Assembly: GCA_026125795.1 (NCBI GenBank)
Contig: JAHCKM010000002.1
Location: 1,302,001 to 1,366,000 of the forward strand
DNA length: 64,000 bases
Reading direction: 5' to 3'
DNA from: Burkholderiaceae bacterium
GTDB lineage: Bacteria > Pseudomonadota > Gammaproteobacteria > Burkholderiales > Burkholderiaceae_C
Made by a program: the position numbers and the translations under genes
Part shown: one piece after another, positions 1,107-15,674 of the stretch
Layout of the letters: each line of letters begins with the position of its first letter
Numbering within the stretch: the stretch's first letter is position 1
The notes under the pieces: generated by a model
The model's database searches: none
What the model saw: the letters and a program-made list of their open reading frames with translations, nothing else
Told to the model about the DNA's origin: nothing

Positions 1107-2069
1107 ATGCCGTCCGCGCAGTCCCAAGCCGTTCCCGCCCCGTCGTCCAGCAGCCAGCAGCTCGCGCTCGCTGCTGGCCTGATCGTGGTGATGGTCTGGG
1201 GTGCCAACTTCTCGGTGCAGAAGGCGCTGTTCGAGCTGCTGCCGCCGGCCGCATTTCTGTTCGCGCGCTACCTGCTGATGCCGCTGTGCGCGGCGCTGCT
1301 GCTGCTGCACGCAAATCGCTGGCGCTGGTTGCGGCTGCCGCGCCGCGATGCGCTGCAGCTGGCGTGGCTCGGCATCCTGGCGCACACCCTGCATGTCAGC
1401 ATGGTGACCTTCGGCATCCACTGGTCGACCGCGTTCTCCAGCGCGCTGATCATGGCCTGCGCGCCGGTGTTCACGCTGTTGATCCTGCACGTGTCGGGCC
1501 ACGAGCGGCTGACGCGCGGGCAGGTGGCGGGCGTGGCGCTGGCGTGCGCCGGCGTGCTGGTGTTCCTGTCCGACAAGCTGCTCGGGCGCCAGTGGGCCGC
1601 GACCGGCGGTGACTTGATGATGCTGTTCTCGGGATCGCTGTTCTCCTACTACACGGTGATGACCAAGCCGCTGATCCAGCGCCATGGCGGCGTGGCGGTG
1701 ATGGCCTATGCCACCTTGGCCGGCAGCCCGCTGCTGGTGCTGCTCGGCCTGCCCACCGCATGGAGCGCGCCCTGGGGCGACATGGGCGCGTGGCACTGGT
1801 TCCTGCTGCTGTGGGCCGCGCTGGTATCGGCGTTCCTCGGCTGGCTGGTATGGGGCTGGGTCAACGAGCGCCGCGGCGTCGCGCGCACCGCGCCGCTGCA
1901 ATACCTGATGCCGCTGGTGGCCGGCGTGGTGGCATGGCTGGCGACCGGCGAGCGCTTCACCGCGGTGAAGATCGGCGGCGCGATCGTCACGCTGGCCGGC
2001 GTGGCGCTGGCGCAGTTCTCGACGCGCGCCAACGATCCGGTGCGCGAGGCGCCGGCGCAGGTGGATTGA
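1107..2069 (+). CDS. EamA/DMT-family inner-membrane transporter
   Basis: The 320-residue protein has about ten hydrophobic segments in two similar halves, the usual length and layout of drug/metabolite transporters with two EamA domains. Typical signatures are the early VVMVWGANFSVQKALF helix and the second-half segment [23 protein letters not shown], in which small and charged residues border the helices. Members export amino acids, nucleobases or small metabolites; the substrate is not predictable here. It starts 51 bases after the antiporter stop on the same strand, with a CACAAT sequence at 1087-1092 that resembles the -10 elements seen upstream of other genes in the window, so it may have its own promoter. 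Confidence 0.9.
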   Translation: MPSAQSQAVPAPSSSSQQLALAAGLIVVMVWGANFSVQKALFELLPPAAFLFARYLLMPLCAALLLLHANRWRWLRLPRRDALQLAWLGILAHTLHVSMVTFGIHWSTAFSSALIMACAPVFTLLILHVSGHERLTRGQVAGVALACAGVLVFLSDKLLGRQWAATGGDLMMLFSGSLFSYYTVMTKPLIQRHGGVAVMAYATLAGSPLLVLLGLPTAWSAPWGDMGAWHWFLLLWAALVSAFLGWLVWGWVNERRGVARTAPLQYLMPLVAGVVAWLATGERFTAVKIGGAIVTLAGVALAQFSTRANDPVREAPAQVD

Positions 2070-2127
2070 CCTCGAGTCGCGCTATCCTGCGCCGTGGCCA
2101 TCACGGCCGAGCATGCAAGGAGTCCCC

Positions 2128-2595
2128 ATGGTTGTAGCGCCGATTCGTCTGGCCGTTCTGGCCTTGTTTGGCACCACGATGGCGTCGTCGGTGTGGGCCG
2201 ACAGTGTCGCGTCGTCGGCGTCGAGCGCCGGCTCGGCATCGCTCGGCAGCATCTCCGACTCGATCGGCAACTCGAGCCGGAGCTCGTCGCCCGACAATCG
2301 CACCGCCGACGGCGACTACCGCGTGATCGAGGTGGCCGAGCTGGCCGGCAAGCCGGGCATGCTGCAGCTCACACTGCAGGCCACGCAGGGCGAGACACAC
2401 GAGTTCACGCTCAAGCTGCCGCGCGAGGCGCTCGGTGCCAGGGGCATCGCGGTGGGCGATGTCGTGCACGCGCGCAATCGGCCCTATGGCCTGGAGTTCG
2501 CGCGGCTGAACGATGCGCGCACGCGCGAGGCATTCTTTCTCGTGCTGGCCGACGATTGGCACAAAGAGCTCGACTCGCGCCCGCTGTCGCTCTGA
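2128..2595 (+). CDS. Small secreted protein of unknown function
   Basis: 155 residues beginning MVVAPIRLAVLALFGTTMA, a signal peptide likely cleaved after SSVWA. The mature part starts with a Ser/Ala-rich stretch (about residues 22-55) followed by a compact beta-rich segment (DYRVIEVAELAGKPGMLQL onward). I chose the ATG at 2128 because AAGGAG at 2117-2122 sits directly before it, while an upstream in-frame ATG at 2113 would itself precede that ribosome site. The gene overlaps or abuts the DUF2145 gene behind it, so the two are probably co-translated and both act in the periplasm. No family is recognised. Confidence 0.75.
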   Translation: MVVAPIRLAVLALFGTTMASSVWADSVASSASSAGSASLGSISDSIGNSSRSSSPDNRTADGDYRVIEVAELAGKPGMLQLTLQATQGETHEFTLKLPREALGARGIAVGDVVHARNRPYGLEFARLNDARTREAFFLVLADDWHKELDSRPLSL

Positions 2596-3491
2596 CGCGG
2601 GCAGCGCTGCTGGCGGCGGCGCTCGGCATGGCCGGCGCCGGCGCCCACGCGGCATCGGCGTCGCAGCGCTTCTGTGACCGGCCGTCACCGCTGAGCGCCC
2701 AGCAGCAGGACCGCCTGCTGCAGGTGGCCGCGCTGGTGCGGCGCGAGCTCGAAGCCTCGGGCCATCGCGTGGCACTGATCTCGCGCTCCGGCTTGAACCT
2801 GCAGCGCTGGGGCATCCGTTATTCGCACGCGGGCCTGAGCTTGAAGGACAACGAGACGCCGTGGTCGGTGCGGCAGCTCTACTACGCCTGCGACGAACGG
2901 CGCCCACGCCTCTATGACCAGGGCCTCGCGGGCTTCCTGTTCGGCACCGACGATCCTCAAGTGGGCTACGTGTCGATCGTCTGGATGCCCAGCGCGCGGG
3001 CCGCCGACGTCGAACGTGCAGCGCAGGACAAGGCGCGCGCGTTGCGCCTGATCGCGGGACGCTACAGCGCCAATGCGTTTCCGTTCAGCCTGCGTTATCA
3101 GAACTGCAACCAGTGGGTGGCCGAGCTGCTCGCCACCGCCTGGGGCGATCTCGACGATGGCGCCGATCTGCGCGCGCGGGCGCAATCGTGGCTGGCCGGG
3201 CACGGCTATGCGCCGCCGGCGGTCGAGGTGCGCTCGCACGCCTACATGTTCGCCGGCACCTTCGTGCCGTGGATCCGCTACGACGACCACCCGGCCGACG
3301 ACCGCTTCGCGCTGCGCTTTCGCACCAGCCTGCCGGCGGCGCTCGAAGCCTTCGTGCGCGAACGCGCGCCCGGTGCACGCCGCGTCGAGCTGTGCCACGA
3401 TGCCACGCGGGTGGTGATCCACGAAGGGTGGGACAACGTGCCCGAGGGATGCGTGCCGCGCGCCGGCGACCGCGTGATCGCGCTCGACTGA
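2592..3491 (+). CDS. DUF2145-family secreted protein
   Basis: The mature sequence contains the features I associate with DUF2145: the RYSHAGLSLKDN segment, LYDQGLAGFL, and FSLRYQNCNQWVAELLATAW with a Cys/Asn/Gln cluster; its function is not established. The start is uncertain. The first ATG (2628) would cut into the hydrophobic core of an obvious signal peptide. A CTG at 2592, overlapping the upstream stop as CTGA, would give MTRAALLAAALGMAGAGAHA, a complete signal peptide, and 299 residues. A TTG at 2556 would add twelve residues. I give the CTG version as the simplest, with the caveat that CTG starts are rare. The C-terminal half is Arg-rich with a Cys pair near the end. Confidence 0.8.
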   Translation: MTRAALLAAALGMAGAGAHAASASQRFCDRPSPLSAQQQDRLLQVAALVRRELEASGHRVALISRSGLNLQRWGIRYSHAGLSLKDNETPWSVRQLYYACDERRPRLYDQGLAGFLFGTDDPQVGYVSIVWMPSARAADVERAAQDKARALRLIAGRYSANAFPFSLRYQNCNQWVAELLATAWGDLDDGADLRARAQSWLAGHGYAPPAVEVRSHAYMFAGTFVPWIRYDDHPADDRFALRFRTSLPAALEAFVRERAPGARRVELCHDATRVVIHEGWDNVPEGCVPRAGDRVIALD

Positions 3492-3517
3492 AGGGTTCTG
3501 CCACGAGCCGGCGCATG

Positions 3518-3549
3518 CGGCTTTCAACGGCACGCGCCGCTGAAAGCCG
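3518..3549. terminator. Strong hairpin between convergent genes
   Basis: A 9-bp arm CGGCTTTCA (3518-3526) pairs perfectly with TGAAAGCCG (3541-3549), and an inner CGGC/GCCG stem closes a four-base loop. It lies between the ends of the DUF2145 gene and the converging small secreted gene, so it probably terminates one or both. There is no U-tract, so it may instead act as an mRNA 3'-end stabiliser. Confidence 0.5.
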
Positions 3550-3599
3550 GGCGGAACGCCAGCGCTTTCGCGGCGGTGGACGGCGAGCGTCTGTCGGGA

Positions 3600-3839
3600 C
3601 TAGATGCCGAGCGTCTTCTTGGCTTCGCCCAGGGCTTTCATCGATTCGGCATGGTTGCCGGCCTTGTGCGCGGCCTCGCCATCGGCACGCAGCTTCTTGA
3701 CATTGGCGGCGTCGGCGTCGCTCAGCTTGGGGTTGGTGGCGAGCTTGGCGTCGATCGCTTTCATCTCGTTGGGACAGTTGTGCGCCAACGCGACGCTGGC
3801 GGCGCCCGCCAGTGCCAACATGAACAGCCATCTCTTCAT
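3600..3839 (-). CDS. Small secreted helical protein
   Basis: 79 residues starting MKRWLFMLALAGAASVALAH, a clear signal peptide with probable cleavage after ALA. The mature part (about 60 residues) has a single Cys and a Lys/Ala-rich amphipathic helical region ending AKKTLGI. The start at 3839 is supported by AAGGAG upstream on the minus strand, and a promoter is visible further upstream (TTGACC at 3904-3909, TACAGT at 3880-3885). No enzyme motif is present; the family is unrecognised but resembles small periplasmic helical proteins common in Burkholderiales. Confidence 0.8.
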   Translation of the reverse strand: MKRWLFMLALAGAASVALAHNCPNEMKAIDAKLATNPKLSDADAANVKKLRADGEAAHKAGNHAESMKALGEAKKTLGI

Positions 3840-3879
3840 GGGGTGCTCCTTGCGAGGATGCGGTTCGAGCCGGGCGGCC

Positions 3880-3909
3880 ACTGTAGGCACGCGTGACGGC
3901 GCCGGTCAA
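3880..3909 (-). promoter_or_regulatory. Sigma70-type promoter of the small secreted gene
   Basis: Read on the minus strand: -35 TTGACC (3909-3904), 18-base spacer, -10 TACAGT (3885-3880). The -10 is embedded in a 15-base word that recurs exactly upstream of another small minus-strand gene at 59625-59639. Confidence 0.5.
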
Positions 3910-3989
3910 GGCGATCAACCCGGACGATCACCAGGCGGGCCGCAAGGCGCCTTGTCGCGCCGCCGACCGCCCCCAATTGCGACCACAGC

Positions 3990-4009
3990 CCCTGCCCGAA
4001 CGGGCAGGG
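3990..4009. repeat. Perfect 9-bp inverted repeat in a divergent intergenic region
   Basis: CCCTGCCCG (3990-3998), two bases, then CGGGCAGGG (4001-4009). It lies in the 251-base gap between the divergent genes at 3839 and 4091, about 80 bases before the latter. It could be an operator or an mRNA leader hairpin; nothing else in the gap is identifiable apart from the minus-strand promoter. Confidence 0.4.
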
Positions 4010-4090
4010 CGCAGCTGGCCCGTCGGCGGAGGCGCGCCGCGATCGAGACGCGCACGATCGTGGCCCGCCTCAACGAACGAGCATCGACAC

Positions 4091-4975
4091 ATGAACCGCG
4101 ACTCCGAACCTCTGCAACTGGCCGACGCCGTCGAACGCGTGGCCGCGTCGGTGGTGGGCCTGGCGACGCGCCGCCTGCGCAGCGCGGGCGTGGTGTGGCG
4201 CGACGGTGTGGCGGTGGCCACTGCGTCCGCGTTGTGGCGCTCGAGCCGCGTGGCGGTGGTGCTGCCCGATGGCGAACAGGTCGAAGGCAGCGTGCGCGGC
4301 ATCGACCCGGCCACCGATCTCGCGGTGGTGGCGTTTGCCGGCAGCAGCGCCACTCCTGTGCTGTTCGATGGTGATGCCCCGGCCTCGCGTGTCGGCGACG
4401 TGGTGTTCGCGGTCGGTCGGGAGCCGTCGGGCGCCGTCCAGGCGAGCTTTGGCCACATCGGCGCTGCGGCCGGAGCGTGGCGCACGTGGCGCGGCGGCCG
4501 GCTTGACCGCTTGATCCGGCTCGACGGCGGTCTGTACCCCGGCTTGCTCGGTGCCGCGGTGGGCGACGCCAGCGGCCGCGTGCTCGGCATTGCCAGCGCA
4601 GCGTTCTCGCGCCACCACGGCGTGGTGGTGCCGCGCGCGACGATCGAGCGTGTGATCGAGCCGCTGCTGACGCACGGCCGCGTCGCGCGCGGCTACCTCG
4701 GCATCGCCGCGCAGCCGGTGCGCGCGCAGCGCGACGGCGTGGCCGTCGACGGCCTGCTCGTCACCTCGGTGGCCGACGACAGCCCGGCCGGGCGTGCCGG
4801 GCTGCTGGTGGGCGATGTGATCGTCACGCTGGGCGGCCAGCCGGCGGGCAGCCTGGAGCGCGTGCGCGATCAGCTGCAAGTGGGGGCGCAGATCGAGCTG
4901 GGCATTGCGCGCGGCGGCCGGGCGCAGGCGCTGACGCTGGAGGTCAGCGAGCGGCCGCACGCGCGTTGTGGTTGA
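4091..4975 (+). CDS. HtrA-like pseudoprotease (S1C fold plus PDZ, catalytic residues lost)
   Basis: 294 residues with the trypsin-like double barrel (about 15-190) and one C-terminal PDZ domain (about 200-285, starting RGYLGIAAQPV and containing SPAGRAGLLVGDVI). It aligns with HtrA/DegP, but only the Asp of the triad is kept (TDLAVV, D76). The His position falls in AVATASALW (about 42-50), which has no His, and the NPGNSGGPL motif has become YPGLLGAAV (149-157), so Ser is Leu153. There is no signal peptide, suggesting a cytoplasmic protein. It probably binds peptides or regulates the intact protease two genes downstream. Its TGA lies 5 bases before the next ATG. Confidence 0.88.
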   Translation: MNRDSEPLQLADAVERVAASVVGLATRRLRSAGVVWRDGVAVATASALWRSSRVAVVLPDGEQVEGSVRGIDPATDLAVVAFAGSSATPVLFDGDAPASRVGDVVFAVGREPSGAVQASFGHIGAAAGAWRTWRGGRLDRLIRLDGGLYPGLLGAAVGDASGRVLGIASAAFSRHHGVVVPRATIERVIEPLLTHGRVARGYLGIAAQPVRAQRDGVAVDGLLVTSVADDSPAGRAGLLVGDVIVTLGGQPAGSLERVRDQLQVGAQIELGIARGGRAQALTLEVSERPHARCG

Positions 4976-4979
4976 ACGC

Positions 4980-5465
4980 ATGCCTCAGATCGTGATCGTC
5001 AGCACCACGCCGTTGCTCGCCGATGGCGTGGCGGGCGCGTTGCGCGGTGTGGAAGGCTGGCGCGTCCGCTTCGGCCACGCCGACGATGACGCCGATGCGT
5101 GGGTGATGCCGACCGCCGACGACGTGACCGTGCGGGGTGCCGGCGGTGCGAGCGCGCAGCTCTCGGCCGGCGTGAGTGCGAGCCGCCTGCGCGCCGCGCT
5201 CGCCGCGGTGCTCGAAGGCCTGTCGGTGCGCGAGCTGCCGTGGACGCTGCACGACGCGTCGACACGCGAGCCGCTGACGCCGCGCGAGATCGAGGTGTTC
5301 GAGCTGCTGGGCAAGGGGCTGTCCAACCGTGACATCGGCGGCGTGCTGGGCATCTCGGCGCACACGGCCAAGTACCACGTGGCGCAGATCCTGGCCAAGG
5401 TGGGTGCCGCCACGCGGGCCGAGGCGGTGCGTGAAGGGTTGCGCCAGGGCTGGATCGGGCTGTGA
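4980..5465 (+). CDS. LuxR-type HTH regulator with degenerate receiver
   Basis: 161 residues. Residues 98-160 are a LuxR/FixJ-type helix-turn-helix (LTPREIEVFELLGKGLSNRD, then ISAHTAKYHVAQILAKVGA), which binds DNA. The N-terminal ~95 residues look like a receiver domain in outline (IVIVSTTPLLADGV, final helix SASRLRAALAAVLEG) but lack the acidic pair after strand 1 (Ser-Thr instead) and show no phosphoacceptor Asp, so phosphorylation control is unlikely. An alternative GTG start lies at 4968, inside the upstream gene. Tight packing between two HtrA-fold genes suggests it controls their expression or is controlled by them. Confidence 0.85.
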   Translation: MPQIVIVSTTPLLADGVAGALRGVEGWRVRFGHADDDADAWVMPTADDVTVRGAGGASAQLSAGVSASRLRAALAAVLEGLSVRELPWTLHDASTREPLTPREIEVFELLGKGLSNRDIGGVLGISAHTAKYHVAQILAKVGAATRAEAVREGLRQGWIGL

Positions 5466-5480
5466 ACGGATCGGAGTGAC

Positions 5481-6449
5481 GTGAAGCGCGACGACACATC
5501 CCTGCTCGACGATGACCTGGAGCTGCTCGACGCCTACTCGCGCACGGTGATCCAGACGCTGGAGCTCGCGCGCGGCGGCGTGGTGTCGCTCAAGACGCAG
5601 GCGCGGCGCGGCGTGCACACGATCGAGGGCGCGGGTTCTGGTTTCTTGATCACGCCCGACGGCTACGTGCTCACCAACCAACACGTGGCCGACGCCGGCC
5701 ATTCCGTCGTGGTGACACTCGACGATGGCAGCGAACAGGCGGCGCAGAAGGTGGGCGGCGATGTCGACACCGATCTGGCGCTGCTGCGCATTGACAACGC
5801 GGCGGCGCTGCCGCACCTGGAGCTCGGCGAGTCGAAGTCCCTGCGTGTAGGACAGGTGGTGATCGCCATCGGCAATCCGCAGGGCCTGGCGCAGACCGTG
5901 ACCACCGGCGTCGTGTCGGCGCTCAACCGCAGCCTGCGCGCGCGCAGCGGCCGCCTGATCGAAGGCGTGATTCAGACCGACGCCAGCCTGAACCCCGGCA
6001 ACTCCGGCGGCCCGCTGCTCGACACCCGCGCGCAGGTGGTGGGTGTGAACACGGCCATCATCGCCGGCGCGCAGTCGTTGTGCTTCTCGATCCCGGCCGA
6101 CACCGCGCGCTGGGTGGTGAGCGAGCTGCTGCGCCATGGGCGCGTGCGCCGCGCCTGGCTGGGCGTGAAGGCGCAGACCGTGCCGCTGCCTCGTCGCACG
6201 GTGGTGCACCACGGTCTGGACGTGCCGAGCGCCGTCAGTGTCGACGAGGTTCTGGCCGACGGGCCCGCCGAGCGCGCCGGCGTGAAGGCCGGCGACCGCA
6301 TCGTGAGAGTCGACGGTCTGCCGATCAAGGACGTGGACACGCTGAACCGCGTGCTCGGCGGCGAGCGCATCGGCCGCAGCGTGCACGTGGAACTGCTGCG
6401 CGGCGTGCAGAAGCTCGCGCTGCAGCTGGTGCCGGCTGCGCGCGCCTGA
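5481..6449 (+). CDS. HtrA/Deg-like serine protease with PDZ domain, no signal peptide
   Basis: 322 residues: S1C protease domain (about 25-220) and one PDZ domain (about 225-315). The triad is complete: His68 in GYVLTNQHVAD, Asp98 in VDTDLALL, Ser175 in NPGNSGGPLL. The N-terminus (MKRDDTSLLDDDLELLDAYS) is acidic and not a signal peptide, so unlike DegP/DegS the enzyme seems cytoplasmic. The GTG start at 5481 is preceded by GGAG at 5473-5476. It is the third gene of a unit with a pseudoprotease and a LuxR-type regulator; the likely role is regulated cleavage of unfolded or PDZ-recognised proteins. Confidence 0.9.
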   Translation: MKRDDTSLLDDDLELLDAYSRTVIQTLELARGGVVSLKTQARRGVHTIEGAGSGFLITPDGYVLTNQHVADAGHSVVVTLDDGSEQAAQKVGGDVDTDLALLRIDNAAALPHLELGESKSLRVGQVVIAIGNPQGLAQTVTTGVVSALNRSLRARSGRLIEGVIQTDASLNPGNSGGPLLDTRAQVVGVNTAIIAGAQSLCFSIPADTARWVVSELLRHGRVRRAWLGVKAQTVPLPRRTVVHHGLDVPSAVSVDEVLADGPAERAGVKAGDRIVRVDGLPIKDVDTLNRVLGGERIGRSVHVELLRGVQKLALQLVPAARA

Positions 6450-6554
6450 TCGCGCCCGGGTGCGTCCGTGCGGGGCCGCGCTCCGTAAGTGCGGGTGCTC
6501 GACGATGCCGTCTCCCGGACGGCCTGCGCAGTCCCATAACACGAACGCACCGCC

Positions 6555-7028
6555 ATGCTGCCCCCTTGCTCCTTCACGTTGCTGGACCAGCGCGCCGGCT
6601 TCCACATCGAGGGGCGCGGTCGCCCCGTGGTGCTGCTGCATGGCGCCTCGGACGGCGAAGGCACGGTGCGCACGCTGCTCGAGCGCATGGGCCACAGCCA
6701 TCGTGTGATCGCGGTCGACGTCGACCCGCAGCGCGGCCCGGATTCGGTCGACAGCGTGCTGCGCATCGGATTGCTACCGGGCGAACGCTTCCACCTGGTC
6801 GGCCATCGGCAGGGCGTGGCGGCGGCGTTGCGCATCGCGCAAGCTCGCCCCCGGCGCTTGTACAGCCTGACGTTGTGCCAGTCCGAACCTGCAGAATTCG
6901 AGGACTTGCGCCACATCATCGCGCCGACGCGCTGGCAGTCGGGACGCGACGGACACGCACCGGCGATCGACCGCTTCATCCGCGACGTCGATGCGCTCGA
7001 CCTGCCGACCCCGTGGCGCGCGGGCTGA
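6555..7028 (+). CDS. Alpha/beta-hydrolase-fold fragment lacking the nucleophile
   Basis: 157 residues resembling the first half of an alpha/beta hydrolase: the oxyanion-loop motif VVLLHGAS (residues 25-32) and the nucleophile elbow FHLVGHRQGVAAALRIA. In active members the elbow is G-x-S-x-G; here it reads G-H-R-Q-G, so Ser is Arg85. The protein stops about 70 residues after the elbow, without room for the catalytic acid and His. It is therefore either a decayed gene or a small non-enzymatic derivative. Separate from the HtrA unit by 105 bases in which I see no clear signal. Confidence 0.6.
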   Translation: MLPPCSFTLLDQRAGFHIEGRGRPVVLLHGASDGEGTVRTLLERMGHSHRVIAVDVDPQRGPDSVDSVLRIGLLPGERFHLVGHRQGVAAALRIAQARPRRLYSLTLCQSEPAEFEDLRHIIAPTRWQSGRDGHAPAIDRFIRDVDALDLPTPWRAG

Positions 7029-7043
7029 GGCCGGCCGGTCCGG

Positions 7044-7427
7044 TCAGGGTGCGCTGCACGCCGGGTTCGTGCCGGCGTTGGGCTTGGTCTCGACGATCAG
7101 CACATGCGTCGGCGTGTCGCCGACGTTCTCCCCGACGTGGGTCTGCGCCGGCGACCACATCACATCGCCGGCCTTGAACTCGCGCGCCAGGACATGACCG
7201 TCGGGCAGGTGCAGCCTGCGCTTGAAGGTGGATAGTGCGTACAGCACGAAAGCCGGGTGTCGGTGCGGATGGGTCCTGTCACCGGGCAGGTCGCGGTACT
7301 CGAGCACGCGCACGCAGGGGTTGTCGAGCAGCTGCTGGTATTTGCCGCCATCGGTGTGCACCGGGTCTTGCGCGTGCGCGGCCGCGCAGGCACACAGGAG
7401 TGCGGCGAGCAGTGGGATATGCACCAT
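7044..7427 (-). CDS. Secreted cupin-fold protein
   Basis: 127 residues; MVHIPLLAALLCACAAAHAQ is a signal peptide cleaved after AHA. The mature protein is a single small cupin barrel: HPHRHPAFVLYAL supplies a His cluster of cupin motif 1 and PAQTHVGENVG the His of motif 2, so a metal site is plausible. Similar proteins are annotated as cytoplasmic or periplasmic cupins of unknown substrate. It is transcribed divergently from the LysR-type gene at 7536, which is the usual position for a target of that regulator. Confidence 0.8.
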   Translation of the reverse strand: MVHIPLLAALLCACAAAHAQDPVHTDGGKYQQLLDNPCVRVLEYRDLPGDRTHPHRHPAFVLYALSTFKRRLHLPDGHVLAREFKAGDVMWSPAQTHVGENVGDTPTHVLIVETKPNAGTNPACSAP

Positions 7428-7502
7428 GGTTGGACCTTTTCCGCTTCGAAGTCGCAGGCTAGGGCGTCGCTGCCCGTGGCGGAAGCCGCAGTTCTGCACA
7501 AT

Positions 7503-7524
7503 GGGGCCGCAGCATTGCGGCCCC
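7503..7524. repeat. Perfect 9-bp inverted repeat just upstream of the LysR-type gene
   Basis: GGGGCCGCA (7503-7511), GCAT, TGCGGCCCC (7516-7524); the ATG of the regulator gene follows at 7536. In RNA it would form a stable hairpin occupying the ribosome-binding region, and in DNA it is a candidate operator for the divergent pair. Confidence 0.45.
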
Positions 7525-7535
7525 TTCGTTGAGAC

Positions 7536-8429
7536 ATGTTCGATTGGAACGACCTGCGGTACCTGCTTGCCGTGGCGCGTGACGGCAGTACCATCGCTGC
7601 CGCTCGCTCGCTGGGGGTGAATCAGTCGACCGTGCAGCGCCGCCTCGCCGAGTTGGAGCGCCGGCTCGGCCAGCCGGTCGCCGAACGTCAGGCAGGCGGC
7701 TACCGGCTGACAGCTTTCGGTGCGGCGCTGCTGCCGCACGCGACCGAGGTGGAGCGTGCGGTTCTGGCTGTGCAGCGGCGCATGGACGATGCGCGGCGTG
7801 ACTTGAGCGGCGTGGTCCGCGTGACCTGCCCCGAGCCGATGGTGGGCCGGCTTACGCACTCCGCACCGCTGGAGCGCTTTCGCCAGCGTTATCCGCAACT
7901 GCATCTGGAGTTCGTGATGAGCGACCGCTACGTCGACCTGCGCGACGGCAGCGCCGACGTTGCGCTGCGCTCCGGCGACACCGACGACACCCATCTGGTG
8001 GGTCGCAAGATCGGGGACTCGCTGTGGGGCGTGTATGCGAGCCAGGCCTATGTCGAGCAGCACGGCAAGCCCGCCTCGGTGGACGAGATCAGACAGCACG
8101 CGGTGGTAGCTTTCGATGCCTCGATGGCGAACCATCGCGCTTCGCAATGGCTGCAGCAGGTGGTTCCCGGCGCGCGCGTGGTGGCGCGTCATGGCAGCGT
8201 ACTGAGCGCGCTGTATGCCGTGAAGGCCGGTGTCGGCGTCGCCGCCTTGCCCACGGCGATCGCCGAGTCGGAGCCGTCGCTGCAGTGCGTACTCGGTCCG
8301 ATTCCCGAGCTCACGCGCATCTGGCGCATCCTCACGCTGCCGCAGTTGCGGCGCGTACCACGTGTGGCGGCGTTCTTCGACCACATGGTCGACGAGCTGG
8401 ACGCGCTGCGGCCCATCATCACCGGATGA
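7536..8429 (+). CDS. LysR-family transcriptional regulator
   Basis: 297 residues, the normal LysR length. The winged helix-turn-helix occupies residues 1-60 (FDWNDLRYLLAVARDGSTIA then GVNQSTVQRRLAELERRLGQ), followed by a linker helix and a periplasmic-binding-protein-like effector domain (about 90-290). The protein probably controls the divergent secreted cupin gene and/or the hydrolase gene that overlaps its end by four bases (ATGA at 8426-8429). The inducer is unknown. Confidence 0.92.
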   Translation: MFDWNDLRYLLAVARDGSTIAAARSLGVNQSTVQRRLAELERRLGQPVAERQAGGYRLTAFGAALLPHATEVERAVLAVQRRMDDARRDLSGVVRVTCPEPMVGRLTHSAPLERFRQRYPQLHLEFVMSDRYVDLRDGSADVALRSGDTDDTHLVGRKIGDSLWGVYASQAYVEQHGKPASVDEIRQHAVVAFDASMANHRASQWLQQVVPGARVVARHGSVLSALYAVKAGVGVAALPTAIAESEPSLQCVLGPIPELTRIWRILTLPQLRRVPRVAAFFDHMVDELDALRPIITG

Positions 8430-9238
8430 CGCGCAGTCAGCCGATGCAGCGCCTCTTCGCGTTCCTCGCGGTGGCCGTGCTGCTGTACGGCCTGGTCCTC
8501 GCGCTGCTGTGGTGGGGTCAGGAGCGCTTGTTGTTCCTGCCCACGCCGATGGCCGCAGAGCACCACCTGGTACTCGAGCCCGGGGTGCACGAGCGCACGG
8601 TCGACGTTCCGGGCGCGCGCCTGCATGCGCTGCACCTCAGGCTGCCATCACCGCGCGGCGTGGTGTTCTTCCTGCACGGCAATGCCGGCAACCTGGAGGG
8701 CTGGTTCTCCGACCTGCAGGTCTACCGGCGCGCCAACTTCGACCTCTTCATGCTCGACTACCGCGGCTACGGCAAGAGCAGCGGCCGGATCCAGAGTGAG
8801 GCGCAATTGCATGCCGACGTGCGCGCCGCGTGGGACTCGATCGCGCCGGAGTACGCGAGCAAGAAACGCGTGCTGCTCGGCCGCTCGCTCGGCAGCGGGC
8901 CCGCCGTTGCGCTGGCGCTGCAGATTCAGCCGGAGCTGACGGTGCTGGTGTCGCCGTATTCGAGCATGCGAGCGCTGGCGGCCGAGGTCTATCCGTGGGT
9001 GCCGGTGGCGCTGCTTCGTTATCCGCTCGCCACCGACGAGGCGATCGTTCGATTGCGCACCCCTGTGCTGCTGTTGCACGGCGAGCGCGACGACATCATC
9101 GGCCCCCACCACAGCGAAGCGCTGAAGCGGCTGCATCCGCCGGCGCGCCTTCACATCGTGAAGGGCGCCGGGCACAACGACCTGCAGGCGTTCGACGACT
9201 ACGAGGCCGCGTTGCAGGCGGCGCTCGACGCAGTCTGA
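8426..9238 (+). CDS. Membrane-anchored alpha/beta hydrolase (BEM46/YfhR-like)
   Basis: 270 residues. One N-terminal membrane helix (about 6-28, rich in Leu/Ala/Val) precedes an alpha/beta-hydrolase domain with VVFFLHGNAGN, the DYRGYGKSSG loop and the nucleophile elbow GRSLGSG; a catalytic Asp (HGERDDI) and His (GAGHNDL) follow in the right order. The HGNAGN motif and the N-terminal anchor are typical of the BEM46/ABHD13-like group, whose substrates are mostly unknown. Start ATG 8426 overlaps the stop of the LysR gene, so translation is coupled. Confidence 0.88.
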   Translation: MTRSQPMQRLFAFLAVAVLLYGLVLALLWWGQERLLFLPTPMAAEHHLVLEPGVHERTVDVPGARLHALHLRLPSPRGVVFFLHGNAGNLEGWFSDLQVYRRANFDLFMLDYRGYGKSSGRIQSEAQLHADVRAAWDSIAPEYASKKRVLLGRSLGSGPAVALALQIQPELTVLVSPYSSMRALAAEVYPWVPVALLRYPLATDEAIVRLRTPVLLLHGERDDIIGPHHSEALKRLHPPARLHIVKGAGHNDLQAFDDYEAALQAALDAV

Positions 9239-9252
9239 ACGGCTGGGTCAGT

Positions 9253-10251
9253 TCACCCAATCAGTTCGTCGGCGCGCAGCAGCAGCGGCCGCGGGATGGA
9301 CATCCCCATCGCCTTCGCGGCGGCGACGTTGATCACGAACTCGAACCGGCTCGGCTGCTCCATCGGCAGATCGGCCGGACGAGCACCGCGCAGGATGCGA
9401 TCGACCTGTTGGGCGACTTGCCGCAACAGCATTGACCAGTCCGGTCCGTAGGCCATCAATCCGCCCGCCTCGGCGTACTCGCGCAACGTGAACACACCGG
9501 GCAGGCGATGTCGGATCGCGAGATCAGCGATGCGCTGGCGGTTGGCGAAGGTCTGGTAGGTCGGCTCGAGCAGGAAGGCCGACGTGTGCGCCGCGGCGAG
9601 CGGCGGGAGTGCCGCCACCAACTCTTCCTGATTGCGGTAGGGGTGGAACGTCAGTTCGATGTGCATCGCGCGTGCGGCGTCGCGTATTGCCGACTCGAAC
9701 CTTGCCTGCCGTGCGGCATCGGCCGACGGGGGAAACAGCAGACCGACCCGGTTCGCCGTGGGCAGCAGCGTCTTGATGAGCTCCAGCCGCTTGGCCCGCG
9801 TTTCGCCCAGCATCCGCGACACGCCGGTCACGTTGCCGCCTGGGCGGGAAAAGCTCGCGATCAGCCCGTCTTCAACTGGGTCCAGGCCGTTGTAGATGAC
9901 CACGATCGGCAGCGTCGACGTGAGCTTGCGCACGGGCACCGCATCGGGGTCTGCGGTCGCCATGATGACATCCACGCGGGCGTCGACGAGGTCACGCGCG
10001 TAGCCAGCCAGTGTGTCGATCTGGCCGTCCGCAAAGCGCCGCTCGACGAGCAGATTGCGCCCTTCGACCCAGCCCAGGCGCTCCATTTCAAGCCGCCAGG
10101 GGCTTCGCTGCAGTTCCGCGTCCGATGGCCGGCGCGCGCTGCTGAGGACGCCCACGCGCGCCACCCGGTCGGCCGGCTGCGCAGCAGACTCGCCCTGCGC
10201 GGCGGCGACGCCCGAGGCGAGGGTGGCAACGAAGCGGCGGCGGTCCATCAT
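9253..10251 (-). CDS. ABC-type substrate-binding protein (PF04392 type), orphan
   Basis: 332 residues with an N-terminal MDRRRFVATLASGVAAAQG export signal that has the two-Arg look of a Tat or lipoprotein-like leader. The body is a two-lobed periplasmic binding fold of the PF04392 group (RVGVLSSARRPSDAEL, the LVERRFADGQ and GGNVTGVS segments). Related proteins bind aromatic amino acids or unknown ligands; many Burkholderiales copies, like this one, have no permease or ATPase gene beside them. It converges with the hydrolase gene 14 bases away. Confidence 0.85.
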   Translation of the reverse strand: MMDRRRFVATLASGVAAAQGESAAQPADRVARVGVLSSARRPSDAELQRSPWRLEMERLGWVEGRNLLVERRFADGQIDTLAGYARDLVDARVDVIMATADPDAVPVRKLTSTLPIVVIYNGLDPVEDGLIASFSRPGGNVTGVSRMLGETRAKRLELIKTLLPTANRVGLLFPPSADAARQARFESAIRDAARAMHIELTFHPYRNQEELVAALPPLAAAHTSAFLLEPTYQTFANRQRIADLAIRHRLPGVFTLREYAEAGGLMAYGPDWSMLLRQVAQQVDRILRGARPADLPMEQPSRFEFVINVAAAKAMGMSIPRPLLLRADELIG

Positions 10252-10265
10252 GGTCTGCCGGTTGA

Positions 10266-11732
<1,467 letters not shown>

Positions 11733-11746
11733 CGCTGCGCGTCGGC

Positions 11747-11790
11747 GCTGCCCCGCGAGGGGGTGCTGTCCGGCTTGGGGCGGCCCGCCG
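11747..11790. repeat. Short GC-rich dispersed-type repeat
   Basis: The gap after argG carries GCCCCGCGAGGGGG followed by a GGGGCGGCCC block. The same kind of C-block/G-block element occurs at 21031-21075, within ntrB at 21668-21712, and in the 32524-32598 hairpin cluster. It looks like one variant of the short intergenic palindromic repeats of Burkholderiales. Confidence 0.4.
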
Positions 11791-11801
11791 TCGGACGAGG
11801 C

Positions 11802-12560
11802 GTGAGTTCCATCGTTGTCGACGTGCCCGCGCCGGCCCCGTCGGTGCAGGGACGCTTCGATCGGCTCGACGCGCTGCGCGGCGTGGCCATCGTCTGGATG
11901 GCCATCTTCCACTTCTGCTTCGACCTTAACCACTTCGGCTTCTTCGAACCCAGGCACCGCTTCACCGTCGACGTGTTCTGGACCACGCAGCGCACGATGA
12001 TCGTCACGCTGTTCCTGTTCTGCGCCGGGCTGGCACAGGCGGTGGCGCTCGAGCAGAGCCAGTCGTGGCCGCGGTTCTGGAAGCGCTGGGCGCAGATCGT
12101 CGGTTGCGCGCTGCTGGTGTCGATCGGCTCGTACTGGATGTTCCCGCGCAGCTGGATCTTCTTTGGGGTGCTGCACGGCATCGCGCTGATGCTGATCGTG
12201 GTCCGGCTCATGGCGCCGCTCGGCCGCTGGTTGTGGCTGATGGGTGCGGTGGCCATCGTGTGGCCGCTGCTGTGGCGTCACGAGGTCTTCAATCCGCCCT
12301 GGCTCAGCTGGGTTGGCCTGGTCACGCGCAAGCCGGTCACCGAGGACTATGTGCCGCTGCTGCCGTGGCTTGGCGTGATGGCGTGGGGGTTGGCCAGCGG
12401 CCGCTGGCTGCTGGCGCACGCGCGCGGCACGCTGGCCGGACCGATTCCGCGTGCGGCCCGGGGGCTCGCCCTGCTGGGCCGATGGTCGTTGAGTTTCTAC
12501 ATGGTGCACCAGCCGGTGTTCATCGGCACGCTGATGGCCGTGGTGGCGCTGCGGCGCTGA
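11802..12560 (+). CDS. DUF1624/HGSNAT-like integral membrane acyltransferase
   Basis: About 252 residues with seven or so hydrophobic helices. The N-terminal motif RFDRLDALRGVAIVWMAIFH with a His in helix 1 and the closing SLSFYMVHQPVFIG are typical of the heparan-alpha-glucosaminide N-acetyltransferase catalytic-domain family (DUF1624), which transfers acyl groups across the membrane to sugars; the bacterial substrate is unknown. I use the GTG at 11802, because the earlier ATG (11763) would translate part of a GC-rich repeat. Confidence 0.85.
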   Translation: MSSIVVDVPAPAPSVQGRFDRLDALRGVAIVWMAIFHFCFDLNHFGFFEPRHRFTVDVFWTTQRTMIVTLFLFCAGLAQAVALEQSQSWPRFWKRWAQIVGCALLVSIGSYWMFPRSWIFFGVLHGIALMLIVVRLMAPLGRWLWLMGAVAIVWPLLWRHEVFNPPWLSWVGLVTRKPVTEDYVPLLPWLGVMAWGLASGRWLLAHARGTLAGPIPRAARGLALLGRWSLSFYMVHQPVFIGTLMAVVALRR

Positions 12561-12679
12561 CGGCGTCGCGACGCCGCGCGCAGCAGTCCGGGGCCCGGAG
12601 ATGCGCTCCAACCCGCCGCGGTTACGTTTCGCTCCAATCTGCGGCTCAGTGGACGGCCCGACCCGCCGATAGGCCTGTC

Positions 12680-13258
12680 ATGCCGTTCGTGTCGTTGTCG
12701 CAGATATACAAGATCGCGCCCAGCCGGCTCGATGCGGCGCGCGAGCCGGCCCCTCTGCCGGTGGCCGCGATCGACCCCGACGCGCGCCCTCGCCGCCAGC
12801 ACGACGAGCGCAGCGAGGCGGGCCAGCCGAAGGAGGGCGAGCGCCCGCGCGGTCGCGACTGCGACAGCGCACGCCGCTCGCCCTTGATGCGCGCGCTGAT
12901 CCTGGTGCTGCGACCGGCGCAGCCGGCCAACGTGCACGCAGACGTGGCGCTGGAGCGTGCGCTGATTGCGTTTGCGCGGGCGCTGAATCTGGCCTCCAGC
13001 GACACCGATGGCACGCCGCAGCCGGCCGCCGTGCGGGCCGACGAGGCCGCGCGGCGCCGCGCCGAACATGAAGAGGCGCTGCTCGACGCGTTCGCCGCGC
13101 TGGCGCGGGCGGCGGGGCGGCCGGAGGCACCGTCGCGCACCGCGCTGCAGATGCAGCTCGGCGACTTCCTGCACCACCTGGCCCGCGAACTGCACATCGA
13201 CAGCGACCGCGCCGGCGAAGCCACCCAGCCCGGCAGCCTGATCAGCGTTCGCGCGTGA
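12680..13258 (+). CDS. Hypothetical protein
   Basis: 192 residues with no family that I recognise. The first 20 residues (MPFVSLSQIYKIAPSRLDAA) and the C-terminal half, which forms regular amphipathic helices (ALERALIAFARALNL, ALLDAFAALARA, MQLGDFLHHLARELHI), look like real protein; the middle (about 30-70) is Arg/Asp/Pro-rich and probably disordered. Antisense frames of similar length exist, but their composition is far less protein-like. The next gene, rlmB, follows after 79 bases. No signal peptide or membrane helix. Confidence 0.6.
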   Translation: MPFVSLSQIYKIAPSRLDAAREPAPLPVAAIDPDARPRRQHDERSEAGQPKEGERPRGRDCDSARRSPLMRALILVLRPAQPANVHADVALERALIAFARALNLASSDTDGTPQPAAVRADEAARRRAEHEEALLDAFAALARAAGRPEAPSRTALQMQLGDFLHHLARELHIDSDRAGEATQPGSLISVRA

Positions 13259-13337
13259 GCCGGGCGCGCGCCAGCCTTGGCCCTGCAGGGCCGGGCTGCG
13301 AGCCGGGCCACGGGCACGCTCCGGCTACGATGCGCCG

Positions 13338-14075
13338 ATGGCGGCGCGTCAGATTTTGTTCGGTTTTCATGCGGTCACGGTGCGTTTGAAGACCGCGCCG
13401 GAGTCGGTGCGCGAGATCCACGTGGATGCCACGCGACGCGATGCGCGCATGCGCCAGTTCGTTGCGCGGGCGCAGGAAGCCGGCGCGCGCGTGATCGACA
13501 GCGACGACCAGAGCCTGCAGCGCCTGTGCGGCACGCACAAGCACCAGGGCGTGGTGGCCCGCGTGGATGCGGTTTTCAAGGCACGCACGGTCGACGAGGT
13601 GCTCGAGGACGTGGAGGGCGCGCCGCTCCTGCTGCTGCTCGACGGCGTGACCGATCCGCACAACCTGGGCGCCTGTCTGCGTGTGGCCGACGGGGCCGGC
13701 GCGCATGCGGTGATCGCGCCGAAGGATCATGCGGTCGGCATCAACGCCACGGTGGCCAAGGTGGCCAGCGGTGCCGCCGAGACCGTGCCCTACCTGATGG
13801 TGACCAACCTGTCGCGTTGCATCGCCGGGCTCAAGGAACGGGGCATTCGCGTGGTCGGCACCGCGGACGACGCGCCGCAGACGCTGCACCAGGCGGATCT
13901 GCGCGGGCCCCTGGCGCTGGTGTTGGGCGCGGAAGGCAAGGGCCTGCGGCAGCTCACGCGCACGGGCTGCGACGCGCTGGTGCGCATCCCGATGCACGGC
14001 GCGGTGGAAAGCCTCAACGTGTCGGTGGCCGCGGGGGTCTGCCTGTTCGAGGCGCGCCGGCAGCGCGATGCGTGA
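13338..14075 (+). CDS. rlmB: 23S rRNA 2'-O-ribose methyltransferase RlmB (G2251)
   Basis: 245 residues, the usual TrmH/SpoU-family length. The N-terminal substrate-binding domain (about 1-80, ILFGFHAVTVRL start) precedes the SPOUT domain with the three family motifs: DGVTDPHNLGACLRVADGAG with the conserved Asn/Arg, the VLGAEGKGLR segment and VRIPMHGAVESLNVSVAAGV forming the SAM-binding knot. The enzyme methylates G2251 in the peptidyl-transferase P-loop of 23S rRNA. The sirtuin gene starts eight bases before its stop. Confidence 0.95.
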   Translation: MAARQILFGFHAVTVRLKTAPESVREIHVDATRRDARMRQFVARAQEAGARVIDSDDQSLQRLCGTHKHQGVVARVDAVFKARTVDEVLEDVEGAPLLLLLDGVTDPHNLGACLRVADGAGAHAVIAPKDHAVGINATVAKVASGAAETVPYLMVTNLSRCIAGLKERGIRVVGTADDAPQTLHQADLRGPLALVLGAEGKGLRQLTRTGCDALVRIPMHGAVESLNVSVAAGVCLFEARRQRDA

Positions 14076-14811
14076 GGATGCGCACACCGAGCTGAAAGGC
14101 CGAATCGCGGCCGCGCGCTCGTTGTTCGTGCTGACCGGTGCCGGCATGAGCGCCGAAAGCGGCATCGCGACGTTTCGCGACGCGATGACGGGGCTGTGGT
14201 CGCACTTTGATCCCGCGCAACTCGCCAGCGAGCAGGGCTTTCGCGCCGATCCCGCCCGCGTGTGGGACTGGTATGCGGAGCGCCGGGCCGGCGTGCGCGC
14301 CGCTCAGCCCAACGCGGGCCACCTGGCACTGGGCGCTTTCGCGCGCCGCCGGCCGGGCGTGCTGACGCTGGTGAGCCAGAACGTCGACGACCTGCACCAG
14401 CGCGCCGGCAACACCGACACGATCCGGCTGCACGGCGACATCCAGCACGACCAGTGGCTCGATCGCTGCGCGCGCACGCCGGCGTGCGCAGCGAGCGAGG
14501 CGCAACCGGGCCGACCGCCGCAGTGCGCGCGCTGCGGCAACCTGGTGCGCCCGGGCGTCGTGTGGTTCGGCGAGATGCTGCCGCCCGATGCGGTCGCAGC
14601 CGCCGAGCGTGCCGCGCGTGGGTGCGACGTCGCGCTGATCGTCGGCACGTCGGGCGCGGTGTGGCCGGCGGCGGGCCTGGCGTCGCTGGCCCGGCGCCAC
14701 GGCGTGTGGGTGGCCATCGTCAACCCCTCCACGAGCGAGATCGACGAGGACGCGCAAGTCGTGCTGCGCGGCACTGCCGCGCAGGTGCTGCCGCCGCTGC
14801 TGGCCCCTTGA
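14068..14811 (+). CDS. NAD-dependent protein deacylase, sirtuin family
   Basis: 247 residues with the sirtuin signatures in order: TGAGMSAESGIATFR (NAD-binding), SQNVDDLHQRAG, the catalytic His in IRLHGDIQ, a zinc site built from a Cys pair in RCARTPAC and a second pair in CARCG, and the late NAD contact GTSG. It removes acyl groups from Lys side chains using NAD. The zinc ribbon has an unusual two-residue widening (C-x5-C in the first pair rather than C-x2-C), which occurs in some bacterial CobB-like proteins. It overlaps rlmB, so the two are likely co-translated. Confidence 0.92.
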   Translation: MREDAHTELKGRIAAARSLFVLTGAGMSAESGIATFRDAMTGLWSHFDPAQLASEQGFRADPARVWDWYAERRAGVRAAQPNAGHLALGAFARRRPGVLTLVSQNVDDLHQRAGNTDTIRLHGDIQHDQWLDRCARTPACAASEAQPGRPPQCARCGNLVRPGVVWFGEMLPPDAVAAAERAARGCDVALIVGTSGAVWPAAGLASLARRHGVWVAIVNPSTSEIDEDAQVVLRGTAAQVLPPLLAP

Positions 14812-14858
14812 ATTCGCTACCATCGCGGCCGTCTTCAGCAACGGCAACGAGAGATTTC

Positions 14859-15674
14859 ATGGCGATGGATGTGGTGGACTACGAGATCAAGGGCTCGGAG
14901 ATGCAGTTCGTGGAGATCGAGCTCGATCCGGGAGAGGCCGCCATCGGCGAGGCGGGCAGCCTGTTCTTCATGGACGCCGGCATCGGCATGGACGCGGTGT
15001 TCGGCGACGGCTCCAGGGGCCAGGGCGGCCTGTTCGGCAAGCTGCTCGGCGCGGGCAAGCGCCTCTTGACCGGCGAGTCGCTGTTCACCACCGTTTACAC
15101 CAACCAGGCTTCAGCCAAGCAGCGCGTGGCGTTTGCCGCGCCGTATCCCGGAAAGATCCTGCCAATGGAGCTCGACAAGCTCGGTGGCATGCTGATCTGC
15201 CAGAAGGATTCGTTTCTTTGCGCCGCGCGTGGCGTGTCGCTGGGCATCGCGTTGCAGCAGCGGCTCGGCGTCGGCTTCTTCGGCGGCGAGGGCTTCATCA
15301 TGCAGAAGCTCGAGGGCGATGGACTCGCTTTCGTGCACGCCGGCGGCACGATCGTCAAGCGCGAACTCGTGCCGGGCCAGACGCTGATGGTCGACACGGG
15401 CTGCGTCGTCGCCTACACGCCGAACACCAACTTCGAGATCCAGTACGTCGGCAAGATCAAGACCGCGCTGTTCGGTGGCGAGGGCTTGTTCTTCGCCAAG
15501 CTCACAGGCCCGGGCACGATCTGGCTGCAGAGCCTGCCGTTCTCGCGTCTCGCGAGCCGCGTGTTCGCCGCGGCGCCGCAACGCGGCGGTGGCCGCGAGG
15601 AGGGCTCGATCCTGCCGGGTGTTGCGGGCGGCGGGCTGCTGGGGGGCATCCTCGGCGGCGGTGATGACGATTGA
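14859..15674 (+). CDS. AIM24/TIGR00266-family protein
   Basis: 271 residues beginning MAMDVVDYEIKGSEMQFVEI. The body is the beta-rich AIM24 barrel with the typical GEAGSLFFMDAGI, LTGESLFTTVYTNQ and GEGFIMQKLEGDGLAFVHA segments. The C-terminus is a Gly-rich tail ending GGILGGGDDD. Function is unknown in bacteria; the mitochondrial relative affects inner-membrane organisation. Its last 11 bases overlap the next gene. Confidence 0.92.
   Translation: MAMDVVDYEIKGSEMQFVEIELDPGEAAIGEAGSLFFMDAGIGMDAVFGDGSRGQGGLFGKLLGAGKRLLTGESLFTTVYTNQASAKQRVAFAAPYPGKILPMELDKLGGMLICQKDSFLCAARGVSLGIALQQRLGVGFFGGEGFIMQKLEGDGLAFVHAGGTIVKRELVPGQTLMVDTGCVVAYTPNTNFEIQYVGKIKTALFGGEGLFFAKLTGPGTIWLQSLPFSRLASRVFAAAPQRGGGREEGSILPGVAGGGLLGGILGGGDDD

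Follow-up and report, generated by a model that had tools for sequence, protein, structure and literature searches.

The window analysed here, a 64,000-nucleotide stretch of contig JAHCKM010000002.1 from a Burkholderiaceae bacterium (GenBank assembly GCA_026125795.1), carries three adjacent genes, called A, B and C below, the first two of which form a conserved module: A encodes an HtrA-family protein without a signal-like stretch and B a LuxR-type regulator with a degenerate receiver. The two genes recur side by side across many genomes, are preceded in the window genome by a palindrome that occurs there only once in exact form, and include, in one group of genomes, a version of A that has lost two catalytic residues. 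What the window holds is this A–B module with an operator-like site, here in its dead form and beside C, an intact HtrA. We see an even chance that A–B is a compact, patchily distributed and self-regulated cytoplasmic HtrA module in which the dead A of this lineage serves as a noncatalytic sensor or partner. An A that keeps His, Asp and Ser is termed live and one that has lost His and Ser dead; genomes other than that of the window are cited by our own handles (G197 and the like) where they have to be told apart.

Gene layout

All three genes run in the same direction on the forward strand. A (4091–4975) encodes a 294-residue HtrA-family pseudoprotease with a trypsin-like domain and one PDZ domain, B (4980–5465) a 161-residue NarL/LuxR-type DNA-binding protein with a shortened, degenerate receiver, and C (5481–6449, GTG start) a 322-residue HtrA-type protease with an intact triad and one PDZ domain. 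In a Pfam scan A and C each match the Trypsin_2 and PDZ models above the cut-offs. An earlier sequence-only reading of this locus gave the order and adjacency of the genes as the coordinates do; of the two gaps that it reported (5 and 15 bases), the second is right and the first is 4 bases. It also assigned the residues correctly. Alignment places Ser46 (4226–4228) at the catalytic His position of A and Leu153 (4547–4549) at the nucleophile position, with the catalytic Asp76 (4316–4318) kept, and C has His68, Asp98 and Ser175. Its description of B as LuxR-type with a degenerate receiver, and of both HtrAs as lacking a signal peptide, agrees with the results given below.

Occurrence and linkage of A and B

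A search of 200 genomes of the family with A gave eight matches at E values of 8.5e-55 or better, the next lying only at 1.1e-31, where ordinary HtrAs start. With a profile of A, 11 of 399 family genomes were positive at E 1e-60, and G1057 was added by a further search. A looser order-wide profile search was rejected: at 1e-45 it reached 225 of 399 genomes and picked up ordinary HtrAs, which is why the stricter cut-offs were adopted. The profile searches scored five to eight candidates per genome, so that the counts are lower bounds and distant A genes may be missed. Within its own genus the gene was found in one of six genomes and within the class in at least one of 274, in both cases the genome of the window. 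Further carriers are Cupriavidus sp. IDO, a metagenome-assembled genome named Bryobacter, and plasmids of Paraburkholderia sprentiae and P. phymatum. With contig VBDL01000044.1 taken as that of G104 and counted once, the total is 15 complete A genes; the A of P. phymatum, which is in pieces, is excluded from all counts. On that plasmid (pBPHY01, locus L094, 4908–6325) A is split over two frames and the B-like piece is shorter than expected.

B stands directly behind A in 14 of the 15 loci with a complete A, mostly across short or overlapping junctions (the start of B is unclear in G176 and G066), so the search for a conserved gene order that the sequence-only reading had proposed does find one, for A and B. 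The remaining locus is that of Bryobacter, where a further HtrA, its triad intact (locus L011, 4980–5804), stands between A and B; the inserted protein groups apart from C in the tree, on a long branch, and a second HtrA has thus joined the A–B module there too. The P. sprentiae genes are annotated as an S1C family serine protease (A) and a response regulator transcription factor (B). B of G653 has one in-frame stop (locus L088, 7540–8367) beside a complete A.

The linkage is not due to chance, since A and B recur next to each other across so many genomes. An all-against-all comparison of ten A–B loci and one C-type locus (overlapping antisense frames aside) found genes other than A, B and C common to at most three loci, and A–B is the conserved unit for that reason; long common flanks were seen only between G192 and G090, which belong to one genus. 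Distances between the A proteins and between the B proteins are correlated (Mantel r 0.89, n = 14, a value reached in none of 9999 permutations), and by this measure the two evolve together. In PHROGs two families were matched, a protease family and one whose function is unknown. Among titles and abstract openings on HtrA or S1C with LuxR, response regulator or pseudo-receiver, a coverage that leaves out most subscription journals, no account of the pairing came up.

A as a separate HtrA branch

The tree was built from 50 rows (15 A, nine C, the extra Bryobacter HtrA and 25 of 86 control HtrAs), the controls being the other HtrA matches from the same searches, C-type proteins among them. A is monophyletic in it (support 100/100), on a long stem and separate from C and the 25 controls. 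Four sequence traits set the family apart. A GxWxxWxG motif upstream of the active site (W130-x-x-W133 in the window, 4478–4489) and a [RQ]LD[GL]G motif are each present in 15/15 A and 0/86 controls; GNSGG around the nucleophile, present in all 86 controls, occurs in none of the 15; and a Cys is the last or second-last residue in 14/15 A and 0/86 controls. The WxxW segment aligns with the loop preceding the nucleophile, which we take to be loop L3 of HtrA proteins, the loop that acts as sensor in DegS. DegS is also the top Foldseek match of the AlphaFold model of A, which was used for fold recognition only.

Export or membrane anchoring is a typical, not a strict, trait of HtrA/S1C proteins. 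Judged by hydropathy only, no signal-like stretch is present in the first 80 residues of any of the 15 A proteins, whose 19-residue Kyte–Doolittle maxima of 0.77–1.47 (1.29 for the window A) lie below 1.6, nor in those of C (maximum 0.60); of the control HtrA frames, 74/86 reach 1.6, but there any position ahead of the last 300 residues counted, which is a looser criterion than the one applied to A.

The conserved Cys (Cys293, 4967–4969, the sole Cys of the window A) lies in a basic tail and invites the view that A serves above all to sense redox state or metal, with the Cys forming an intersubunit disulfide or a metal site whose state would be passed to B. Besides its absence from all controls, the Cys is the sole one in seven of the 14 A proteins that have it, and there are precedents in MamO, a metal-binding HtrA (accessible text of PMC4794232), and in RitR, a redox sensor with an aspartate-less receiver (accessible text of PMC5965902). 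However, no second Cys is found among the invariant columns and the Bryobacter A lacks the terminal Cys altogether, and we hold sensing of this kind as the chief role of A to be rather unlikely. The readings weighed here are not mutually exclusive.

Loss of catalytic residues

His, Asp and Ser are all kept in 11 of the 15 A proteins, the Asp in all 15. The four dead proteins (window, G197, G721 and G097) form one tree group beside the live G104, with support of 92/87, which is below the starred level. Since 11 of 15 retain the triad, the catalytic loss is derived; it falls in four related genomes. Only two columns, His46 and Ser153, are fixed in 11/11 live and lost in 4/4 dead proteins; four more (3, 66, 169 and 261) reach 10/11 among the live ones, and six are fixed among the dead proteins and absent from the live ones, where they are variable.

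If A were a decaying paralogue without function, the joint loss of His and Ser and the free variation at the Ser position (Leu, Asp, Glu and Met in the four dead proteins) would be expected, as might ratios of nonsynonymous to synonymous substitution (dN/dS) as high as the 0.63 reached in dead pairs with G097. Against this stand 40 columns invariant across 15/15 A, the terminal Cys retained in 4/4 dead proteins, the retained coupling to B, and dN/dS values that stay under 1 in each of the five dead pairs: 0.25 (G197–G721), 0.36 (window–G721), 0.42 (window–G197), 0.47 (window–G097) and 0.63 (G197–G097), compared with 0.18, 0.25, 0.38 and 0.47 in live pairs, all obtained by the NG86 method and rough at this high GC content. 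We regard decay as very improbable, and A as plain junk is rejected by the terminal Cys, the invariant columns and the dN/dS values. By these comparisons dead A is a pseudoprotease retained under selection, perhaps somewhat relaxed, and the live proteins most likely use their triad.

The regulator B

The window B has a LuxR-type helix–turn–helix (HTH) domain (GerE, E 1.6e-14), and GerE was matched in 10/10 B homologs scanned. A profile of ten B sequences aligns over its full length with VraR, ChrA and NarL-type regulators. The receiver is recognized only faintly: Pfam gives no receiver match for the window B and a weak one in 2/11 B scanned (E 5e-4 and 0.05). By eye, the Asp pair of VraR is replaced, a complete acidic pair being present in 0/14 B (in G716 the second position is Glu), and the phosphoacceptor Asp is kept in 7/14 (G066, G192, G090, Cupriavidus, Bryobacter, G1057 and P. 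sprentiae), is Glu in G716 and is absent from the four B proteins of the dead-A group and from those of G104 and G176. The window B thus has neither the complete pair nor the phosphoacceptor. The B proteins of the window genome, G197 and G721 are reduced to 159–162 residues. The model of the window B (mean predicted local distance difference test score, pLDDT, 82.9) shows a strand, a helix, four further strands and a second helix, followed by the linker and the HTH domain; Foldseek matched it to full-length regulators with poor superposition (template-modelling scores near 0.4). On these alignments B, a NarL/LuxR-type regulator, appears to have a pseudo-receiver, a state that is probably ancestral to the family because no B has a complete acidic pair and the receiver is seen only weakly.

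A predicted operator upstream of A

A palindrome, CCTGCCCGAACGGGCAGG (Box 1, 3991–4008), lies 100 bp upstream of A, between A and a small upstream open reading frame (ORF) on the other strand, and is a predicted operator; a degenerate second box, CCGTCGGCGG (Box 2), follows at 4020–4029, no strand being assigned to either. The sequence CCTGCCCGAWCGGGCAGG, or one base off it, is found at −97 to −100 in the window genome, G197, G721 and G104, a similar palindrome at −92 in Bryobacter and GCTACCCGTTCGGGTGGT at −125 in Cupriavidus. A scoring matrix, trained for each locus without relatives of that locus on seed sites chosen by eye, gives its top locus-wide match upstream of A in 9/15 loci, at −73 to −125, and ranks Box 1 first in the 14-kb locus of the window genome. 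A second box resembling CCGWTCGGCGG, a pattern picked after looking, is present at −68 to −75 in 10/15 loci.

Nine genomes were scanned for the palindrome with up to two mismatches. It occurs without mismatch once each in the window genome (6.57 Mb), G197 and G721, always upstream of A, and with one mismatch upstream of A in G104. The window genome has four further sites, all with two mismatches; the three that were inspected lie inside ORFs with a coding-like GC pattern, the fourth being at position 577056 of contig C3. Four relatives without A (G199, G098, G723 and G096) have zero to two forward matches, none with fewer than two mismatches. Within the window, a scan allowing three mismatches gave four matches compared with 4.35 expected, which is no enrichment, and only the exact copy stands out. 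Three sites away from A were inspected in G097, two of which lie outside the ORFs found (contig C12, 628313, and contig C4, 140686) and one inside. As a separate observation, the first of these and a site at 628521 on the same contig are 208 bp apart, and together with the C4 site they are palindromes one to two mismatches off the pattern.

The palindrome was also considered as a terminator or a dispersed repeat, and both were rejected, as it sits between A and the opposite-strand ORF, no run of T follows it and the genome has a single exact copy. B is predicted to bind it. If it does, then B is likely to regulate a single operon, its own, and not a wide set of genes, at least in the window genome, G197 and G721, since the sole strong palindromic site found precedes that operon.

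The neighbouring protease C

C and its relatives form a group with support of 100/100 against A (three control rows in it are copies of C members) and are themselves patchy: at E 1e-65, 13 of the 200 genomes searched within the family have one. The order A–B–C with short gaps occurs in two genera, represented by the window genome and G097, and thus C adjoins A–B in only 2/15 loci; the triad as a conserved unit is rejected on this count. G199, of the same genus as the window genome, matches the window collinearly across 1728–15380 and has C (82% identical) at the collinear place, without A–B, the gap being occupied by other genes. Those genes (locus L130, 7042–10924) resemble an isomerase, a homospermidine synthase and an old yellow enzyme, as named by inspection. 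Upstream of A–B–C the window has a DUF2145 protein (2532–3488; Pfam E 2.4e-57).

It is a substantial possibility, although one with clearly less than an even chance, that A–B is a functional pair and C an unrelated neighbour where the pair landed, or else that C outlived A–B in G199. The arrangement in G199 fits this, as do five inspected plasmid records (two from Caballeronia and one each from Rhizobium, Sinorhizobium and Thermomicrobium) among 61 with a C-type match, in which neither A nor B lies within about 5 kb. Two observations run counter to it. The same order is present in G097, whose A–B–C region has no DNA match to the window outside the three genes and adjoins kdpD/kdpE-like genes (named by inspection); and a C-type protease (E 1e-65 or better) is present in 4/4 genomes with a dead A, adjacent in two (window and G097) and elsewhere in two, compared with 1/10 with a live A and 9/192 without A (both draws of 200 genomes are taken as the same, and P. 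sprentiae, known here from a plasmid only, is omitted from the live count). The Thermomicrobium roseum plasmid carries two C-like genes within 6 kb (locus L097, 4875–5849 and 10089–10777), both annotated as trypsin-like peptidases.

The sequence-only reading had gone further and made the three genes one dedicated switch, in which C degrades B and the dead A is an adaptor or inhibitor. The A–B–C order in two genera, the C-type proteases in all four dead-A genomes and the intact HtrA between A and B in Bryobacter speak for such a proteolytic circuit, as does a precedent: MamO, an HtrA pseudoprotease, is required for MamE-dependent proteolysis through its presence and not its triad, according to the accessible text of PMC4794232, so that an intact HtrA can depend for its work on a pseudoprotease of this fold. 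On the other side, C adjoins the pair in few loci, stands without A–B in G199 and occurs without A in nine sampled genomes, and no sign of B as a substrate was seen. We judge this circuit improbable. The sequence-only reading had itself named homologs of A that keep His and Ser as evidence against it, and such homologs are the majority, which tells against it in part. Its observation was right and its interpretation partly so: the linkage of a signal-less HtrA to a pseudo-receiver is conserved, whereas the triad is not a unit.

Proposed function and comparison with known systems

In the self-regulated module that we propose, B, without a complete phosphorylation pocket, would bind the palindrome, and with it the second box, upstream of A and so set the expression of its own operon. 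In most lineages the cytoplasmic A keeps its triad and probably cuts. The PDZ domain, the WxxW loop and the terminal Cys, to go by their conservation, may be sensing or assembly parts through which A would read misfolded ends or the redox or metal state and then act on B. In the lineage of the window the dead A could be a sensor or allosteric partner, most likely binding B, C or both, and C would thereby fall under the control of the operon of B in the window genome. A sharper form of this proposal is possible but doubtful: a one-operon module in which the pseudo-receiver transcription factor controls that operon alone and takes its state from a cytoplasmic HtrA/PDZ protein instead of a kinase, and in which one lineage has made A a pure sensor (of a PDZ ligand, or of redox or metal state through the terminal Cys) and passed the cutting to a second HtrA under the same control.

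Several points weigh against the module as proposed. In six of the 15 loci (G066, G192, G090, G653, G716 and P. sprentiae) the best match upstream of A, at −97 to −134, is equalled in score by two to 20 positions elsewhere, and in G097 the site upstream of A departs from the pattern by more than two mismatches and five other places lie within two. The dead A and B of G197 and G721 have no C beside them. The dead-A genomes form one group, so that their co-occurrence with C-type proteases does not amount to four independent events and is suggestive only, and C could have been missed in three live-A genomes because these are incomplete (G104, 76%; G1057, 80%; G653, 84%). The dN/dS values of dead pairs with G097 are 0.47 and 0.63, against 0.18–0.47 for live pairs. 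The AlphaFold model of A is poor (four rows, mean pLDDT 63.7), and no geometry is claimed for A for that reason.

PDZ-gated control of an HtrA tied to transcription is represented by the DegS–RseA–sigmaE system. A resembles DegS in having one trypsin-like and one PDZ domain and in being a PDZ-linked HtrA tied to transcription, but has no membrane anchor and no GNSGG, and its partner is a pseudo-receiver regulator instead of an anti-sigma factor. The likeness to MamE/MamO lies in the pairing of a pseudoprotease of the HtrA fold with an HtrA that is intact, the latter a role for which C is placed by its adjacency in two genomes and its relatives in the other two with a dead A. Unlike MamO, A lacks any membrane part, and it comes coupled to a transcription factor; a metal site is known for MamO and not for A, and kinship between the two is known only as far as the HtrA fold, MamO lying outside the rows of the tree. 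On the side of the regulator, B shares its full-length family profile with VraR/LiaR, ChrA and NarL and differs from them in its acidic pair, complete in none of 14, and in its receiver Asp, kept in half. With RitR and other aspartate-less receivers (ALR) it shares an incomplete acidic pair, so that control without ordinary phosphotransfer is to be expected; unlike them, it has a fixed HtrA/PDZ partner gene and has shrunk in the window genome, G197 and G721.

The switching mechanisms of bacterial pseudo-receivers are still called a mystery in the accessible text of a 2025 review (PMC12632262). B is a pseudo-receiver regulator whose protein partner is fixed and for which a single candidate operator is defined, in a system small enough to be rebuilt in a laboratory strain of Escherichia coli. 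The terminal Cys of A offers a sharp and simple target, and the live and dead forms of the same HtrA constitute a natural test of the roles of HtrA proteins beyond cutting.

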